Positions 33,337 through 40,097 of a DNA stretch of 64,000 nt are shown piece by piece; the stretch's first letter is position 1, and each line of letters opens with the position of its first letter. Under the pieces are notes generated by a model that saw only the letters and a program-made list of their open reading frames with translations, did no database searches and was not told the DNA's origin. Source of the stretch: Kofleriaceae bacterium. GTDB lineage: Bacteria; Myxococcota_A; Polyangia; Haliangiales; Haliangiaceae. Location of the stretch: assembly GCA_018057825.1 (NCBI GenBank), contig JAGPCY010000012.1, forward strand, positions 62,001 through 126,000, given 5' to 3'. Position numbers and translations under genes: made by a program.

Positions 33337-34058
33337 GCCGGACCTCCAACGTCGGCGCCGGGGGCGACCGCGGCGGCGGCCTCACCCTCGACGATCTCGC
33401 CGTCGCGCATCGCGATGACGCGCTTGGCGATGCTCGAAACCCGGCGCTCGTGGGTGACGATCACCAGCGTGACGCCGTCGTTCGAGTTGAGCTTCTGGAA
33501 GAACTCGATGACCTCGGCGCCGGTGGCCGAGTCGAGGTTGCCGGTCGGCTCGTCGCACAGCAGCAGCTTGGGTCGACCGAACAGGGCTCGGGCGATGGCC
33601 ACCCGCTGCTTCTGACCGCCCGACAGCTCCGACGGGCGGCGCTCGGCGTACTGGCTGAGCCCGACCCGGTCGAGGGCCTCGCGGCCGCGGGCGGCGACGT
33701 CGCCGGTGATCGGCGCGAAGGACGCCGGCAGGGTCACGTTGCCCAGGCAGGTCAGGTGATCGAGCAGGTTGAAGGCCTGGAAGACGAAGCCGATGGAGGT
33801 GTTGCGCAGCCGGGCCAGGCTCTGCTCGGAGGTCGAGCGGAAGGCGTGGCCCAAGACGGTGATGTCACCGTCGTCGGCCTTGTCCAGGCCGCCGATGATG
33901 TTGAGGAGCGTCGACTTGCCCGAGCCGGACTGGCCGACCAGGGCGACCAGCTCCCCGGGGGCGACGTCGAGGGAGACGCCGCGCAGGACCGGAGTGCGGA
34001 CGGCGCCGGCGCCGTAACTCTTAGTGACGCCCTTGAGGGAGATGACGGAGCTGGTCAC
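33333..34058 (-). CDS. ABC transporter ATP-binding protein, MacB/LolD type
   Basis: The protein has 241 residues from GTG 34058. Walker A is GQSGSGKST, the Q-loop region FQAFNLLDHLTCLGNV, the signature LSGGQKQRVAIARAL, Walker B LLLCDEPTGNLDS, and the switch His is in VIVTHE. The spacing and LTCLGNV wording match the LolD/MacB/FtsE group. It powers the FtsX-type permease encoded immediately downstream. Confidence 0.96.
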   Translation of the reverse strand: MTSSVISLKGVTKSYGAGAVRTPVLRGVSLDVAPGELVALVGQSGSGKSTLLNIIGGLDKADDGDITVLGHAFRSTSEQSLARLRNTSIGFVFQAFNLLDHLTCLGNVTLPASFAPITGDVAARGREALDRVGLSQYAERRPSELSGGQKQRVAIARALFGRPKLLLCDEPTGNLDSATGAEVIEFFQKLNSNDGVTLVIVTHERRVSSIAKRVIAMRDGEIVEGEAAAAVAPGADVGGPA

Positions 34059-34109
34059 GGGTCGGGAGTCGATAACACATCCGCGCCGGGTTGGTAGTCC
34101 CCCAGGCGC

Positions 34110-35585
34110 TCAGCGGTCCCCCCGCAGCGTCACGATCAGGGTGTCGCCGGTCAGGCGCGCGGTGACCTCGCCGTAGGTCCAGCGCCGGAGCGCGGCCACC
34201 GTGACCGCCCGGGCGCGATCGCGGCCGATGATCGGCTCGAGGAGCTGATCCCAGCTCTCCGCCGACCAGGCCTGGGGCCGGACCTCGACGCGGACCAGAT
34301 CGTCGGATGGGACGCGATCGAGCAGGCCGTCGATCGGCAGGTCGACCGCGACCGTCACCGCCTCGCCGTCCTGGGCGGCGTGGAAGGCCGGCACGAGCGG
34401 GACGTCGACCGAGGTCACGGTCCGGCCGGCGACCTGGCGGGTCCGGGCGAAGATCGCGCGCCCGGGGATCTCGTCGAGGGCCTCATCGAGGACACCGGGC
34501 TTGGCGGCGGCGGCGATCGCGCCGCGGGCGGCGCGGTCGTCGAGGTCGAGCTGGTGGGCGAAGGCCCGCACGCCCCACAGGCCGGCCCGGGTCGCGTCGC
34601 GGGTGAGGGCATCGCCCAAGCACGGCTCGACGGCGGCCTCGACCCGGCGCAGGTCGAGGCCCCACTCGACCACCAGGGGCGCGTCGGCGCGGGCCGCGGC
34701 CCACCCCGGCGGCGCCGGCAGCGCGGCGGCGGCGATCCCGGCGGCGGCCGCGCCAACCTCGACGGTGATCACGCCGCGGGACTCGGACGGCTGGCGGTCG
34801 GCCCCGCTGGCTGCGGCGACGAACACCCGGCCGACCGGGGCCACCAGGGCGGCGCACGCCGGCAGGTGCTCGCCGAGCACCGCGGCCCGGAGCTGGGCCG
34901 GGCGGATCACCCCGACCACCGGCGGCGTGGCCAGGCCGAGGTGGCTCGCCCCGGCGGCGACCGCGGCCGCCAGATCGGGGTGCTCGACGAACCGCCCGCC
35001 GGCGGCCAAGGCGGTGCGCAGCCAGGCGTCCGGCGTGGCGCGCTCGCCGGTCAGCTCGAGGTGGATCAAGAGGTACCGATCGATCGCGACCCAGTGGATC
35101 GCCAGGCCACGCTCGGGGCGCCAGGTCGACACCTCGTGACCGTCGACGGTCGAGGTGGCCAGCACCAGGCCGCCCTGGCGCAGGCGATCGATGTGGGCCG
35201 CCAACCGCGCCGGGTCGGCCAGGGCCACCGCGAGGACCGGCGACACCCCGCCGTGGCCCCACACCGCCACGCCGCCGGCCAGATCGACCCCGGCGTCGAC
35301 CAGGGCGGCGCTCGACAGGAGGTCCAGGCCCAGCTCCTCGGCGAGGAGCGCGCCGAGCGCGGCGGCGTCGACCTGGACCGCCGGGCCCAGGCCGTCGGCC
35401 AGGTCCCGGAGCACGCGCACGAGGTCGTCCCCCGACCGGGCCGCGATCGCGTAGGTCGCATCGGCGGGGACGAAGCGCGCCGCCGGGTACAGCTCGGCGC
35501 GGCCGCTGCGCGGCGTGGACCGACCACCGCAGCCGAGGACCGCGAGGGCGACGACGAGCACCAGAGACCGCAGGGCGACGGGCAT
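34110..35585 (-). CDS. Lipoprotein of unknown function
   Basis: The protein has 491 residues from ATG 35585. The N-terminus is a clear lipoprotein signal, with LVLVVALAVLGC and Cys22. The open frame extends upstream to 35714 but the signal fixes this start. The body is alpha/beta with repeated motifs such as FVPADATYAIAARSGDDLVRVLRDL, DPARLAAHIDRLRQG and FAHQLDLDDRAARGAIAAA. These recall large predicted lipoproteins of Myxococcota with a paired-domain plan, but I recognise no named family. It is 51 bp upstream of the ABC exporter genes on the same strand and may be its partner or cargo. Confidence 0.75.
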   Translation of the reverse strand: MPVALRSLVLVVALAVLGCGGRSTPRSGRAELYPAARFVPADATYAIAARSGDDLVRVLRDLADGLGPAVQVDAAALGALLAEELGLDLLSSAALVDAGVDLAGGVAVWGHGGVSPVLAVALADPARLAAHIDRLRQGGLVLATSTVDGHEVSTWRPERGLAIHWVAIDRYLLIHLELTGERATPDAWLRTALAAGGRFVEHPDLAAAVAAGASHLGLATPPVVGVIRPAQLRAAVLGEHLPACAALVAPVGRVFVAAASGADRQPSESRGVITVEVGAAAAGIAAAALPAPPGWAAARADAPLVVEWGLDLRRVEAAVEPCLGDALTRDATRAGLWGVRAFAHQLDLDDRAARGAIAAAAKPGVLDEALDEIPGRAIFARTRQVAGRTVTSVDVPLVPAFHAAQDGEAVTVAVDLPIDGLLDRVPSDDLVRVEVRPQAWSAESWDQLLEPIIGRDRARAVTVAALRRWTYGEVTARLTGDTLIVTLRGDR

Positions 35586-35696
35586 GGCCGGAGCATGCCG
35601 CGCCGCGGCGCCGGGCGCGAGGGACCGCCGATCGACAGATCGTCCGCGATCGCGCAACCGGCGCACCGGCCGGCCGATACCGCGCTCAACCGCGAC

Positions 35697-35701
35697 AGGA
35701 G
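35697..35701 (+). promoter_or_regulatory. Strong ribosome binding site of the 23-codon leader ORF
   Basis: AGGAG lies five bases before the ATG at 35707. It is one of the best ribosome sites in this part of the window and serves only the short ORF, not the frame of the next protein. Confidence 0.6.
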
Positions 35702-35706
35702 ACACC

Positions 35707-35778
35707 ATGTCCACGAGTCGATCTTTGCCGAGCCATCGGGTATCGTCGTGCCACCGCCAGCGGCGGAGTCGCCGATGA
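35707..35778 (+). CDS. Possible 23-residue leader peptide
   Basis: ATG 35707 has a strong AGGAG site at 5 nt. The ORF codes for 23 residues rich in Arg and Ser (MSTSRSLPSHRVSSCHRQRR...). Its stop codon overlaps the ATG of the next gene as ATGA, the coupling style used for real gene pairs in this window. A translated leader that couples or attenuates the operon is plausible; a chance ORF is the alternative. Confidence 0.45.
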   Translation: MSTSRSLPSHRVSSCHRQRRSRR

Positions 35779-36119
35779 CCAGCATCACGCGCCCCGGTGG
35801 CCCCACCGGCCCCACCGGCCCCGACGCCAGCACCGAGCTGACCGAGGCCAGCTCGACCACCTCGGCGACCGCGACCGCCGGTGCCGCCGATCCGGCGGCC
35901 GCCGATCCGATGGCCGCCTTGGCCGCCGCCGTCGATCGCGGGGCGGTCGCCCCCCGCGAGGCCCTGCAGCAGCTCATCGACGCCTCGGTCGCCGGGCTGC
36001 CGGCCGATGAGGCCGACGAGCTGCGGGCGGAGATGGCCGAGCTCCTCGCCGAGGATCCCTACCTGCGCGGCCTGGCGAGCGAGCTCGGCGTGCCGGCCGA
36101 ACCGGGGGACGGCGCTTGA
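35775..36119 (+). CDS. Small helical protein of unknown function
   Basis: The protein has 114 residues from ATG 35775, with GGAG six bases upstream. The first 50 residues are a low-complexity Gly/Pro/Thr/Ala stretch. The last 60 form two or three helices (VAPREALQQLIDASVAGLPADEADELRAEMAELLAEDPYLRGLASELG). No signal peptide or known motif is seen. It is coupled to the next gene by a TTGA overlap. The conserved-looking C-terminal part suggests a small adaptor; the function is unknown. Confidence 0.65.
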   Translation: MTSITRPGGPTGPTGPDASTELTEASSTTSATATAGAADPAAADPMAALAAAVDRGAVAPREALQQLIDASVAGLPADEADELRAEMAELLAEDPYLRGLASELGVPAEPGDGA

Positions 36120-37417
36120 TCGCTCGGACCCTGGTCGCGGCGATCGCGATCGCCCTCGCGATCGGAGCGCGGGCCGCGCCGAGCCGGGCCGATGACGGCG
36201 ACGCGGTCGAGGCGGTCAAGCCCGAGGCCGCGGTCACCGTGGTCATCACCGCCGCCGACGGCGTCAAGCTCGGCGCCGCCCGCAAGGCCACGCTCGCGGT
36301 CACCTTCGAGCGCGCGCTGCGCCGGGACAAGCGCCTGCTGGTGATCGACCAGGACGATCGCCTCGCGGCGCGCACCAAGGCGGTGCCCACCGACGCGGTC
36401 AACGAAGGCCGGGCGATGCTGGCCACCGGCGAGGAGATGCTGCGGCGCGGCCAGGCCAAGGCCGCGGTGCTGAAGCTCCAGGGGGCGTCGGCCCAGCTCG
36501 CCACGGTCCTGGCCTGGACCCAGAAGCAAGATCTCGCCCGCGCCCAGCTCTACCTCGGCACCGCCCAGGCGGTGGCCGGCGACACCAAGGCCGCGCTGGC
36601 GACCTTCGTCGCGCTCTTGGCCTGGCGCCCCGATCAGCTCCCCGATCCCGACGTCGAGCCGACCAAGGTGCTGCCGGTGTGGGAGAAGGCCCAGCTCCAG
36701 GCCGCCAAGCTGCCGCGGGCGTCGTTGTCGATCGCCACCTCGCCGGCCGGGGCCCTGGCCTACGTCGACGGCAAGATGGTCGGCTTCACGCCGACCACCG
36801 TCGACGATCTCGCCGAGGGCGTCCACTACGTGACCCTGCGCCGCGCCGGCTCGGTGCGCCGGGTCGATCCGGTCAAGGTGTCGGCCAAGGCCACGGCCGA
36901 GCTGGCCGCGGTGCTCGAGCCGTCCAACGGCGCCCCCGAGCTGGCCGACGCGGTCGCGCTCCTCGACGACGGCCTCGGCGAGCCGATCGCCAAGGCCGGC
37001 GCCCAGGCCGGCCTGGCCGGCGTCGGCGACCTCCTCGCGGTCGAACACGTCGTCGTCCTCGACGTCTTGCCGGGCGACGGCGCCTACCGGGCCTGGGTCT
37101 ACGCCGTCGATGGTGGGGCGCGCCTGGGCGCGACCGAGATCACCGTCGGCGATCGCGATCCCGAGGACGCCTTCGCCGAGGCCGGCGCGGCGCTGTACCG
37201 CCAGGTGGCCAAGGCCAAGGTCAAGCCGCGGGTCAGCAAGCGCCGGGCCGGCAAGCGCGGCCGATCGATCTTCACCCGGTGGTGGTTCTGGACCGGCGTC
37301 GGGGCCATCGCGGCGACCGCGATCGCGGTGCCGGTGGTGATGGAGCTGACCGACGGACCGGCGCCCCTGACCTGCCCGGTGGGTCAGTCGTGCGGCGGCG
37401 TGGTGTTCCGGTTTTGA
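36116..37417 (+). CDS. Secreted or membrane-anchored PEGA-like domain protein
   Basis: The protein has 433 residues from TTG 36116, overlapping the previous stop. The signal peptide is about 1-25 (LVAAIAIALAIGARAAPSRA). A region at about 40-105 resembles a nucleotide-free partner fold (VTFERALRRDKRLLVIDQDDR). TPR-like helices lie at about 100-180 and a PEGA-like unit at about 203-265 (ASLSIATSPAGALAYVDGKMVGFTPTTVDDL). A C-terminal TM helix sits at about 392-412, followed by a short tail with two cysteines. It is probably anchored with most of its mass in the periplasm. Similar proteins are common in Myxococcota; the role is unknown. Confidence 0.8.
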   Translation: MIARTLVAAIAIALAIGARAAPSRADDGDAVEAVKPEAAVTVVITAADGVKLGAARKATLAVTFERALRRDKRLLVIDQDDRLAARTKAVPTDAVNEGRAMLATGEEMLRRGQAKAAVLKLQGASAQLATVLAWTQKQDLARAQLYLGTAQAVAGDTKAALATFVALLAWRPDQLPDPDVEPTKVLPVWEKAQLQAAKLPRASLSIATSPAGALAYVDGKMVGFTPTTVDDLAEGVHYVTLRRAGSVRRVDPVKVSAKATAELAAVLEPSNGAPELADAVALLDDGLGEPIAKAGAQAGLAGVGDLLAVEHVVVLDVLPGDGAYRAWVYAVDGGARLGATEITVGDRDPEDAFAEAGAALYRQVAKAKVKPRVSKRRAGKRGRSIFTRWWFWTGVGAIAATAIAVPVVMELTDGPAPLTCPVGQSCGGVVFRF

Positions 37418-37740
37418 AGAAGCCGCCGCGCGCCCGCGCCGCCCGCCGCGCCGCCGATCGCCAGGCCCAGGCGGTCACGCGCAAGCGCGATCGGGTGGCC
37501 GCCCTCGAGCCCGGCGGTGACGCGACCTGGCCGATCGCGGTGGCGTCGACCGCGGTGATCGAGCGCCGGATCGCCGAGCTGGCGTGCGCTCGGTGCGCGG
37601 GCCCGCTGACGGTCGAGGCCCACGACGCCGCGGTGGTCGACGGCCTGCGCCGCCGGGTGGTGCGGGCCCGGTGCGCGCGCTGCAGCGCCCTTCGCACGCT
37701 GTGGTTCGAGGTCGTCACGCTTATCGAAGCGGATAACTAA
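37414..37740 (+). CDS. Small zinc-ribbon-like protein
   Basis: The protein has 108 residues from TTG 37414, overlapping the preceding stop (TTGA), as the gene before it does. A basic N-terminal helix (KKPPRARAARRAADRQAQAVTRKRDRV) is followed by two CxxC pairs, CARCAGPL and CARCSAL, spaced about 33 residues apart. That is a zinc-ribbon layout. The ribbon's role (DNA, RNA or protein contact) is not evident. The stop codon lies inside the terminator stem-loop. Confidence 0.65.
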   Translation: MKKPPRARAARRAADRQAQAVTRKRDRVAALEPGGDATWPIAVASTAVIERRIAELACARCAGPLTVEAHDAAVVDGLRRRVVRARCARCSALRTLWFEVVTLIEADN

Positions 37741-37765
37741 CTACACGTAATTTATCCGTTTTTTT
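37728..37765 (+). terminator. Intrinsic terminator after the zinc-ribbon gene
   Basis: CGGATAA (37730-37736) and TTATCCG (37752-37758) pair across a 15-nt loop, with two or three more weak pairs at the base, followed by seven T residues (37759-37765). The stop codon is in the loop. This is a canonical stem plus U-run and the only AT-rich patch nearby. Confidence 0.8.
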
Positions 37766-37798
37766 GCCCTGGCGGGCGCCTTTGCCGAGCATGCGGCG

Positions 37799-38758
37799 AT
37801 GGTGTCCAACGAGTCCACCCGCCTGGTGCGTCGCCGGGCGACCGCGCCCAAGCTGGCCCGCGCTGTCCCCGAGCACACCACCCGGGCGCCGTCCGCGGCG
37901 TGGCCGATCATCAAGTGGGTCGGCGGCAAGACCAAGCTCTTGCCCGAGCTGGCGACCCGCTTGCCCCAGGGCTACCGCCGCTACTACGAGCCGTTCGCCG
38001 GTGGCGCCGCGCTGTTCTTTCACCTGGGCCCGACCGCCGCGGTCCTGTCCGATCGCAACGCCGATCTGATCGGCATGTACCGCGCGGTGGCCGCGGATCC
38101 CGACGGCGTCCTGCGCCGGCTGGCGCTCCATCGCGACGCCCACGGCACCGAGCACTACTACCAGACCCGCGCGCGCTGGAACGATCGCGCGGTGTCGTGG
38201 TCGGTCCTCGATCGCGCCGCCACCTTCATCTACCTGAACCGCACCTGCTTCAACGGCCTGTGGCGGGTCAACAAGGGCGGCGGCTTCAACGTGCCGATGG
38301 GCCGCTACAAGAACCCGGCGATTTACGACGCCGAGACCATCGGCCGCGCGTCGGCGGTGCTGCGCGGCGCGACGCTATTGTGCGGCGACTACCGGGACGC
38401 GGTGGCCGACGCCGGCCCGGGCGATCTGGTGTACTTCGATCCGCCCTACGATCCGGTGACCACCACCGCCAACTTCACCGCCTACACCGGCGACGGCTTC
38501 TCGCGCGACGATCAGGCGACCCTGGCGAACACCGTGCGCGAGCTGGCCGAGCGCGGCTGCGCGGTGGTCCTGTCCAACAGCGACACGCCGCTCATACGGT
38601 CGCTGTACCGCGGCCTGCGGGTCGATCGCGTGAAGTGCCCGCGCGCGATCAACTCCGATCCGACCCGCCGCGGCGACGTCGACGAGGTCGTCGTGATGGC
38701 CGGGTTCGCGGCCCGGGCCGGCAAGCGCACCACCACCCGGCGCGCCGTCGCGCGCTGA
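37799..38758 (+). CDS. dam: Dam-like DNA adenine-N6 methyltransferase (class D12), orphan
   Basis: The protein has 319 residues from ATG 37799. D12-class motifs are in order: IKWVGGKTKLLPEL, SAM-binding YEPFAGGAALFF, FIYLNRTCFNGLWRVNKGGGFNVPMGRY, catalytic DPPY (about 213) in LVYFDPPYDPVTTT, and VVLSNSDTP. FNGLWR and GRYKNP are shared with Dam, so GATC is a likely target, though not proven. No restriction gene is next to it. The roles to expect are mismatch repair, replication timing or phase control. A 40-residue basic N-terminal tail is longer than in E. coli Dam. Confidence 0.93.
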   Translation: MVSNESTRLVRRRATAPKLARAVPEHTTRAPSAAWPIIKWVGGKTKLLPELATRLPQGYRRYYEPFAGGAALFFHLGPTAAVLSDRNADLIGMYRAVAADPDGVLRRLALHRDAHGTEHYYQTRARWNDRAVSWSVLDRAATFIYLNRTCFNGLWRVNKGGGFNVPMGRYKNPAIYDAETIGRASAVLRGATLLCGDYRDAVADAGPGDLVYFDPPYDPVTTTANFTAYTGDGFSRDDQATLANTVRELAERGCAVVLSNSDTPLIRSLYRGLRVDRVKCPRAINSDPTRRGDVDEVVVMAGFAARAGKRTTTRRAVAR

Positions 38759-38765
38759 GCGAGCG

Positions 38766-40097
38766 CTACGGCTCGGCGGCGACGCGGGTGCGGACCGGCG
38801 GCGGCGCGTCGAAGTCGGTCCAGGTCGGCGTCGGGTCCTTGCGGTTGCGCAGCCGGATCGGCGTGCCGCCGCGATCGTCGACGAGCTGGATCGACAGCCA
38901 GCCCGGCGGCACCGCCGGCTGGGTCCACTCGAACAGGAACCGGCCGTCGGTCGGCGCGACGTTGATGCAGCCCTGGCTGCGCGGCTTGCCGAAGCCGTCG
39001 TGCCAGTACGCGCCGTGGACCGCGTAGTGCTTGCGGAAGGTCATCGCGAACGGCACGTCGGGGACGTCCCATCGGCCAAGCGCGATCTCGGGGCTCTTCA
39101 AGCGGGCCACCGCGCGCTTCTCGCGGATGCGGTGGAGGCCGGTCGGCGTCGACCGGCCGCGGCCACCGGACACCAGCGTGGCGTAGACCGGCTGGTCGCC
39201 CTGATAGGCCAACAGCACCTGCTCGTCGAGGTCGACGTCGAGCCAGCGCTCGTCGGCGCCGACCCCGGCCGGCCGCGCCGCGGTCCGCGCGATCCGCAGC
39301 TCGGCGCGCGCGACCCAGCGATCGGGGGCGATCTGCACGAAGCCGTCGCGCTCGGCCAGGACCGCGACCACCGCCCGGCGCTCGACGGTGGCGACCGCCG
39401 CGGCCGTCGGATCCGGGACCGCGCGGACCTCGACCGGCAGCTCGCGCCGCCGCGGCGTCACCCACGCGAAGGGCCAGCTCGGCGGCGCGGTGGTGGCGAG
39501 GTCGAGCCCGGCGAACCGCGACGCCTGGCGCGCCTCGGTGCGCTCGGCGGCGATCACGCCGCGCCGGGTGGCGATGAAGCGCCGATCGCCGACCGCGATC
39601 GCGTCGGTCGCCCCGTGGAGGAAGGTCCAGCCCGGCAGCTTCTTGCCGGTCCGCCCGCCGCGCACGGCCGCCGCCACCGTCGGGTAGGCCCGGGCGCCGT
39701 CGGGGACCACGCCGAGGTGGAGGCGATCGAGGACGCGGGCGGTGATCGCGGCCGGGTCCGCGGCCGGCTGCGGGCCGTCGGCGCTCGGCCGCACGTCGCG
39801 CGCGCACACCCAACCGCCGGCCGGCAGCTCGAACCAGCCCCGGCAACGGTCGCGGCTGGCCACCAGCCGGGTCCAGGTCGTCCGGGTTCCGGACGCGAGG
39901 CGGCCGCGGCGACCGGCCCCGAGCGTGCGGTAGACCTTGACCGGGGCCGGCGCGACCAGGGTCGCGGTGTCGGCGGGCCAGCCCAGGTCGGTCACGGCCA
40001 GGGGCGTCCCCGGGCGCGGCCGTCGTCCGGCTGGGGCGGTGGTGGCCATCGCCGCCAGCGCCGCGACCACCAGGCAGCTCAGACGTCGCCCGCGCAT
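38766..40097 (-). CDS. L,D-transpeptidase (YkuD domain), secreted
   Basis: The protein has 443 residues from ATG 40097, opening on a signal peptide (LSCLVVAALAAMATTAPAG). The middle has two SH3-like or repeat regions (VKVYRTLG, WFELPAGGWVCARDVR). The YkuD domain (about 295-425) shows HGAYWHDGFGKPRSQGCINV, with the catalytic Cys and the usual His. It cross-links peptidoglycan or attaches proteins to it. It forms a pair with the M23 peptidase gene 26 bp upstream, both on the minus strand. The upstream open extension to 40436 overlaps that gene and is not used. Confidence 0.93.
   Translation of the reverse strand: MRGRRLSCLVVAALAAMATTAPAGRRPRPGTPLAVTDLGWPADTATLVAPAPVKVYRTLGAGRRGRLASGTRTTWTRLVASRDRCRGWFELPAGGWVCARDVRPSADGPQPAADPAAITARVLDRLHLGVVPDGARAYPTVAAAVRGGRTGKKLPGWTFLHGATDAIAVGDRRFIATRRGVIAAERTEARQASRFAGLDLATTAPPSWPFAWVTPRRRELPVEVRAVPDPTAAAVATVERRAVVAVLAERDGFVQIAPDRWVARAELRIARTAARPAGVGADERWLDVDLDEQVLLAYQGDQPVYATLVSGGRGRSTPTGLHRIREKRAVARLKSPEIALGRWDVPDVPFAMTFRKHYAVHGAYWHDGFGKPRSQGCINVAPTDGRFLFEWTQPAVPPGWLSIQLVDDRGGTPIRLRNRKDPTPTWTDFDAPPPVRTRVAAEP

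Follow-up and report, generated by a model that had tools for sequence, protein, structure and literature searches.

A short reading frame of conserved position at the head of a PEGA-protein gene chain in a myxobacterium, and its possible origin in a lost first gene

Translational coupling through NTGA overlaps (-4 nt) is a described arrangement, which includes short upstream open reading frames (ORFs) that deliver ribosomes to the gene behind them (PMC12548453; PMC6728339), and short coupled upstream ORFs are being reported in large numbers (PMC12548453), but their origin is seldom visible. The gene chain analyzed here shares with these systems the -4 nt overlap and a short ORF led by a Shine-Dalgarno (SD) sequence, together with a downstream start that would be used after termination, but differs from them in that its leader holds a promoter-like element and seems to stand where a first gene has been lost, and in that its coupling is predicted. 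A second point of reference is the T3SS* of Myxococcus xanthus, a needleless, T3SS-like apparatus described as having no secretin, needle or translocon (PMC12075869). Our sequence likewise comes from a myxobacterium, although it is not a T3SS locus, and any tie of its second and third genes (ORF2-ORF3) to T3SS depends on the first gene seen in relatives outside the family, whose resemblance to needle genes is weak.

The window, that is, the whole stretch of 64,000 nucleotides that was analyzed (G000:C58:62001-126000), belongs to a high-GC genome. The chain and its candidate control elements are laid out in it as follows.

35653..35679, plus strand: P1, promoter-like element CGCAAC-N16-CGATA of alternative-sigma type, ending 27 nt before the leader
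35697..35702, plus strand: leader Shine-Dalgarno AGGAGA, read from the sequence
35707..35778, plus strand: leader ORF of 23 codons, with ATG at 35707 and stop TGA at 35776-35778
35718..35746, plus strand: P2, sigma70-like element TCGATC-N17-TATCGT, inside the leader
35765..35768, plus strand: ORF2 Shine-Dalgarno GGAG, located by script
35775..36119, plus strand: ORF2, 114 aa, with ATG at 35775 and an ATGA overlap with the leader stop
36116..37417, plus strand: ORF3, PEGA-domain protein of 433 aa, with a TTG start at 36116 and a TTGA overlap
37414..37740, plus strand: ORF4, CxxC/CxxC protein of 108 aa, with a TTG start at 37414 and a TTGA overlap
37730..37765, plus strand: intrinsic terminator, with a 7-bp core stem (37730-37758) followed by T7

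The preliminary description had read this region as a leader with its own ribosome site, joined to ORF2 by ATGA, with TTGA overlaps into ORF3 and again into ORF4, and the sequence confirms every one of these elements. The terminator that was said to close the chain is likewise borne out: its stem, which starts within the final codons of ORF4, has a folding energy of -11.3 kcal/mol, with a z of -3.14 relative to 200 shuffles, and its absence from the output of a consensus terminator scan is probably due to the restriction of that scan to loops of 3-8. The overlaps in which they lie make the two TTG starts look genuine, and GGGGGA stands at 36104, before the TTG of ORF3. As such, 4-base overlaps are ordinary here, since seven more were found elsewhere in the window on crude gene calls. 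The ORF2-ORF3 junction is an NTGA overlap in 8 of 14 loci, where the start may be ATG, GTG or TTG, and the type of start codon at this junction is not conserved.

Conservation of the leader was assessed in eight family loci, including that of the window, which come from the genomes whose match to ORF3 reaches E 1e-72 or better. Six of the eight belong to a single genus, a further genome of which (G001) has no ORF3 match and hence no locus, and with so small and related a set the frame-keeping events that can be counted are few. An SD-led short ORF ending on the ATGA of ORF2 is present in seven of the eight, so that conservation in relatives, which the preliminary description had proposed as a check, holds for both position and frame. 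The seven leaders measure 23, 23, 21, 22, 26, 22 and 17 codons, and their starts lie 68, 68, 62, 65, 77, 65 and 50 nt from ORF2, in the same frame throughout, and 23-27 nt from the CGATA of P1 in every case. All seven starts are preceded by an SD-like motif, which was a condition of the scoring, and in L002 the start is GTG. The one family locus with no leader is L008, in genome G011, where ORF2 and ORF3 are nevertheless retained. When the stretch from CGATA to ORF2 was shuffled, an SD-led ORF ending on ATGA arose 16 to 69 times in 2000 shuffles (0.8-3.5%), depending on which of the eight loci was shuffled; the loci are related to each other and do not constitute independent trials. Judged by these figures, the leader ORF is beyond chance. 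Outside the family, a locus of the same order (L010, in G031) carries a 14-codon SD-led leader with a GTGA overlap with ORF2 and has no exact P1, which brings the leaders to 8 of the 14 loci scored overall; three loci with ORF2-like frames (L012, L016 and L017) were left out of the 14. Other overlapping frames were not counted as leaders, among them a TTG frame of 43 codons within the needle-like gene at L009 and, in L004 and L005, frames of 51 and 59 codons that stop 7 nt short of ORF2.

The position of the leader is thus kept and its sequence is not. In the two equal-length pairs compared, differences fall almost evenly on the three codon positions (10, 10 and 8 for L001/L002; 6, 6 and 5 for L004/L006), and the codon GC profile of the leader, 0.52/0.74/0.70, is not gene-like. 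By the first of these measures the peptide sequence is unconstrained, and the flat differences suggest that what is preserved would be translation as such and not the peptide.

Upstream of the leader, P1 is found in all eight family loci, with a spacing of 16 in seven of them and of 17 in L008. Matches to CGCAAC-N15..17-CGATA number 38 in the window's own genome as against 1 for the reversed control, and 199 as against 8 over seven genomes of the genus; a version of the pattern that adds an ATG downstream was present in 29 of 30 family genomes. On the strength of the 38-to-1 enrichment in its genome, P1 is probably an alternative-sigma promoter, and it gives a way into a promoter class whose exact sites number between 16 and 39 in each genome of this genus. 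It differs from the tRNA promoters of the genome. A FliA/sigma28 promoter of the flagellin type was considered and rejected: CGATA occurs in none of 12 flagellin-family upstream regions of the genus, and the upstream regions of the six strongest flagellin matches carry CTCAA or a like word, with GCGAAT in four of the six.

Thirty of the 38 P1 sites in the genome were examined individually (G000, L031-L060), and in nine of them (L034, L035, L039, L041, L044, L049, L053, L056 and L060) an evident gene start lies 8-12 nt past CGATA with no Shine-Dalgarno, a configuration that suggests leaderless transcripts. Among the targets of these 30 sites are one ComF-like protein, one FHA-like protein and several transposase-like proteins, as named from their translations. 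The leader design was not supported as a general feature of P1 sites, a short ORF ending on the NTGA of a long gene having been found at 4 of 52 sites (scored from the 56 loci given) versus 2 in the opposite-side control. Two of those four, L048 and L051 (G000:C42 and C43), are similar loci in which P1 precedes an ORF of 58 codons with a stop that forms an ATGA overlap with a gene of 439 codons; the length of this short ORF is kept and its sequence is not, with differences of 14, 12 and 11 by codon position.

Inside the leader, the -10 part of P2 reads TATCNT, or TATTCT in L005, in all eight family loci, the leaderless L008 included, and TCG lies 17 nt before it in seven of the eight, L007 being the exception. 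Every one of the seven leaders contains the codon GTA, which accounts for 0.5% of the Val codons in 17 genes of the window. P2 forces this codon upon the leader frame and persists where the leader is missing, which argues that the stretch is constrained as DNA. The 17-nt spacing falls within the 16-18 nt that separate TTGAC from TA before 8 of 30 tRNA genes, although the -10 hexamers of the latter (e.g. TAGAAA) are unlike the TATCNT of P2, and a scan of positions 34000-39500 with a strict sigma70 consensus returned no promoter, P2 included. The tRNA genes of this genome include an array in which 21 of its 65 tRNA matches are packed into 6.4 kb (G000:C80:29878-36322). Given its location, P2 would perhaps allow ORF2-ORF3 to be transcribed without the leader; it predicts a transcription start inside the leader, an outcome that the preliminary description had itself named as speaking against its proposal.

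A clue to the origin of the leader may come from relatives of the same order or class outside the family, in which a gene of 135-150 aa precedes ORF2-ORF3 (L009, L011, L014 and L015; 4 of the 14 loci). In an alignment of ten members, two of the encoded proteins match Pfam T3SS_needle_F and two match HrpA_pilin, weakly in both cases (best E 5.4e-4 and 1.6e-4, respectively). The one member for which a bit score was given reached 14.7 bits, below the T3SS_needle_F gathering score of 29.4, and sequence matches in the PDB were no better than E 0.3, with no needle among the four listed. The needle-likeness of this first gene must hence be regarded as weak. Its profile matches 19 of 56 genomes at E 0.01 and none of the seven genomes of the window's genus. 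GCAAC and CGATA, at a spacing of 16-17, stand 19-48 nt before the start codon in four of the ten needle-like loci and are absent before the other six; this pattern is looser than that of P1, and the four matches were counted with no chance control. As the same kind of element lies 23-27 nt before the leader, the leader start would occupy the start slot of the lost gene.

Comparison of the peptides themselves gave an uneven result. Scored by mean score against the N-termini of the needle-like proteins, the leaders of L001, L002, L004 and L006 were equaled or bettered by 8, 5, 5 and 3 of 150 shuffles, and those of L003, L005, L007 and L010 by 84, 128, 141 and 91. The motif M[SP]x[PT]R opens three of eight leaders and four of seven needle-like proteins, as compared to 12 of 859 control N-termini, but it was chosen after inspection and the control set was not purged of leaders or needle-like proteins. 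This weak similarity is only suggestive. With regard to the export gate (FHIPEP), more than one match was found in every genome of the genus apart from G001, which is fragmented. One of those in the window's genome belongs to a flagellar cluster. The second shows a gap in the profile match and has a glutamate racemase gene within about 5 kb, as does one gate of G030 (gene names read off translations). The gap is not strictly tied to absence of the needle gene, since G046 and G047 carry both the gap and a needle-like gene.

The reading that we favor, with a probability of roughly one half, is that the leader is the 5' stub of a lost first gene, which would act as a ribosome-loading upstream ORF on transcripts from P1 and be bypassed by those from P2. 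The arrangement in some relatives beyond the family would be an operon of the needle-like gene (~150 aa), ORF2 and ORF3, driven by a P1-like element. All that the window's genus would have kept of the first gene is its 5' end, with the promoter, the SD, the start codon and some 20 codons, and this stub would run straight onto the ORF2 start, staying open and ending on ATGA. On P1 transcripts, ribosomes would load at the leader SD, stop on the ORF2 start and reinitiate there, and translation of ORF3 would follow through the same kind of overlap. The transcript from P2 would be shorter, with ORF2 initiating from its own SD, so that leader-dependent translation would be limited to P1 transcripts. 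Position, frame and overlap of the leader are conserved, as are P1 and P2 at the level of sequence; promoter activity, leader translation, coupling and descent from a lost gene are what we infer from the sequence. In modeled P1 transcripts of the seven leader loci, the SD region of ORF2 is 19-64% unpaired, and it is in the leaderless L008, a single case, that the ORF2 start codon is most open (87% unpaired). We consider the coupling mechanism plausible for P1 transcripts.

Some lineages have a whole gene in this slot and others an in-frame short ORF, a contrast that would offer a testable route to the birth of a ribosome-loading upstream ORF. It is a tentative proposal, which we regard as possible and rather less than even, that the promoter, ribosome site and first ~20 codons of a lost operon-leading gene were kept and turned into such a leader. 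Were this the case, the scar of becoming "needleless" in a myxobacterial lineage would now be a translation signal. How the leader probably arose, and the class of promoter that would drive it, may both be new.

A second account, to which we assign a distinctly minor though still appreciable likelihood, makes the leader a passive by-product of tandem P1 and P2 promoters, its SD and short frame being relics with no effect on ORF2. Such an account fits the retention of both promoter elements in L008, the free peptide and gene-unlike codon profile of the leader, and the SD that ORF2 itself possesses. It is harder to reconcile with the survival of an SD-led frame ending on ATGA through several changes of length in seven of eight loci, given the low frequency with which such frames appear in the shuffled sequences.

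The preliminary description had gone further than the reading favored here and proposed the leader as the ribosome-loading site of the whole chain, with every downstream gene depending on it. Its first half is partly supported, inasmuch as the SD-led ORF and its overlap are kept and the peptide is free, and the good SD of the leader and the junctions, each a -4 overlap, are what could be expected of a chain so loaded. The dependence of the whole chain is, however, unlikely, and the proposal taken in full is improbable. ORF2 has its own SD and an ATG start, which is conserved as ATGACC in the eight family loci, P2 lies within the leader, and L008 manages with no leader at all. Moreover, ORF3 and ORF4 overlap upstream partners of their own, and the ORF4 match in the seven other family loci is either on a different contig from ORF3 (six) or missing (one).

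That a short SD-led ORF heads an operon would also be compatible with an attenuator or a regulatory peptide read by the ribosome, but we hold this to be very unlikely, as the peptides diverge widely with flat codon-position differences in two pairs, no common run of regulatory codons was apparent by eye, and a scan for terminators with loops of 3-8 found no terminator-like site in the leader region. Finally, the leader is almost certainly not an ORF2 N-terminus displaced by a base-call error or frameshift: the ORF2 frame of the window is open upstream and reads as more gene-like than the leader, and it stays open beyond the leader start in five of seven leader loci, but stops close it inside the leader at 24 nt (L002) and 45 nt (L003) upstream of the ATG with the layout unchanged, and an identical error in seven genomes is unlikely.

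Regarding the genes of the chain, the ORF2 product is predicted to combine a Gly/Pro-rich, disordered N-terminus with a four-helix C-terminal domain (AlphaFold2, mean pLDDT 69.5), and a fold search of it against the PDB returned nothing better than E 8.8. In L003/L064 (G006:C146), ORF2 shifts frame in mid-gene, through either mutation or assembly error. ORF3 matches Pfam PEGA (E 5e-12), its match in the genome of L008 being split into two pieces, and for ORF4 a match was found in 32 of 56 genomes, its own included; to judge from sequence, both are real genes. In L003 and L004, another gene coding for a secreted-protein-like product lies 3' of ORF3, at the place of ORF4 in the window, which suggests that the tail of the operon is exchangeable. 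The divergent neighbors in the window and in several family loci comprise a probable lipoprotein gene and genes for an ABC ATPase and permease, whose identities, beyond that of the ATPase of the window, were read off translations. From these neighbors and the needle-like partner, one might guess at a role of the chain in envelope or secretion biology. Past the terminator, at 37799-38758, the window carries a gene for a D12-class adenine DNA methyltransferase (Pfam E 4e-58).
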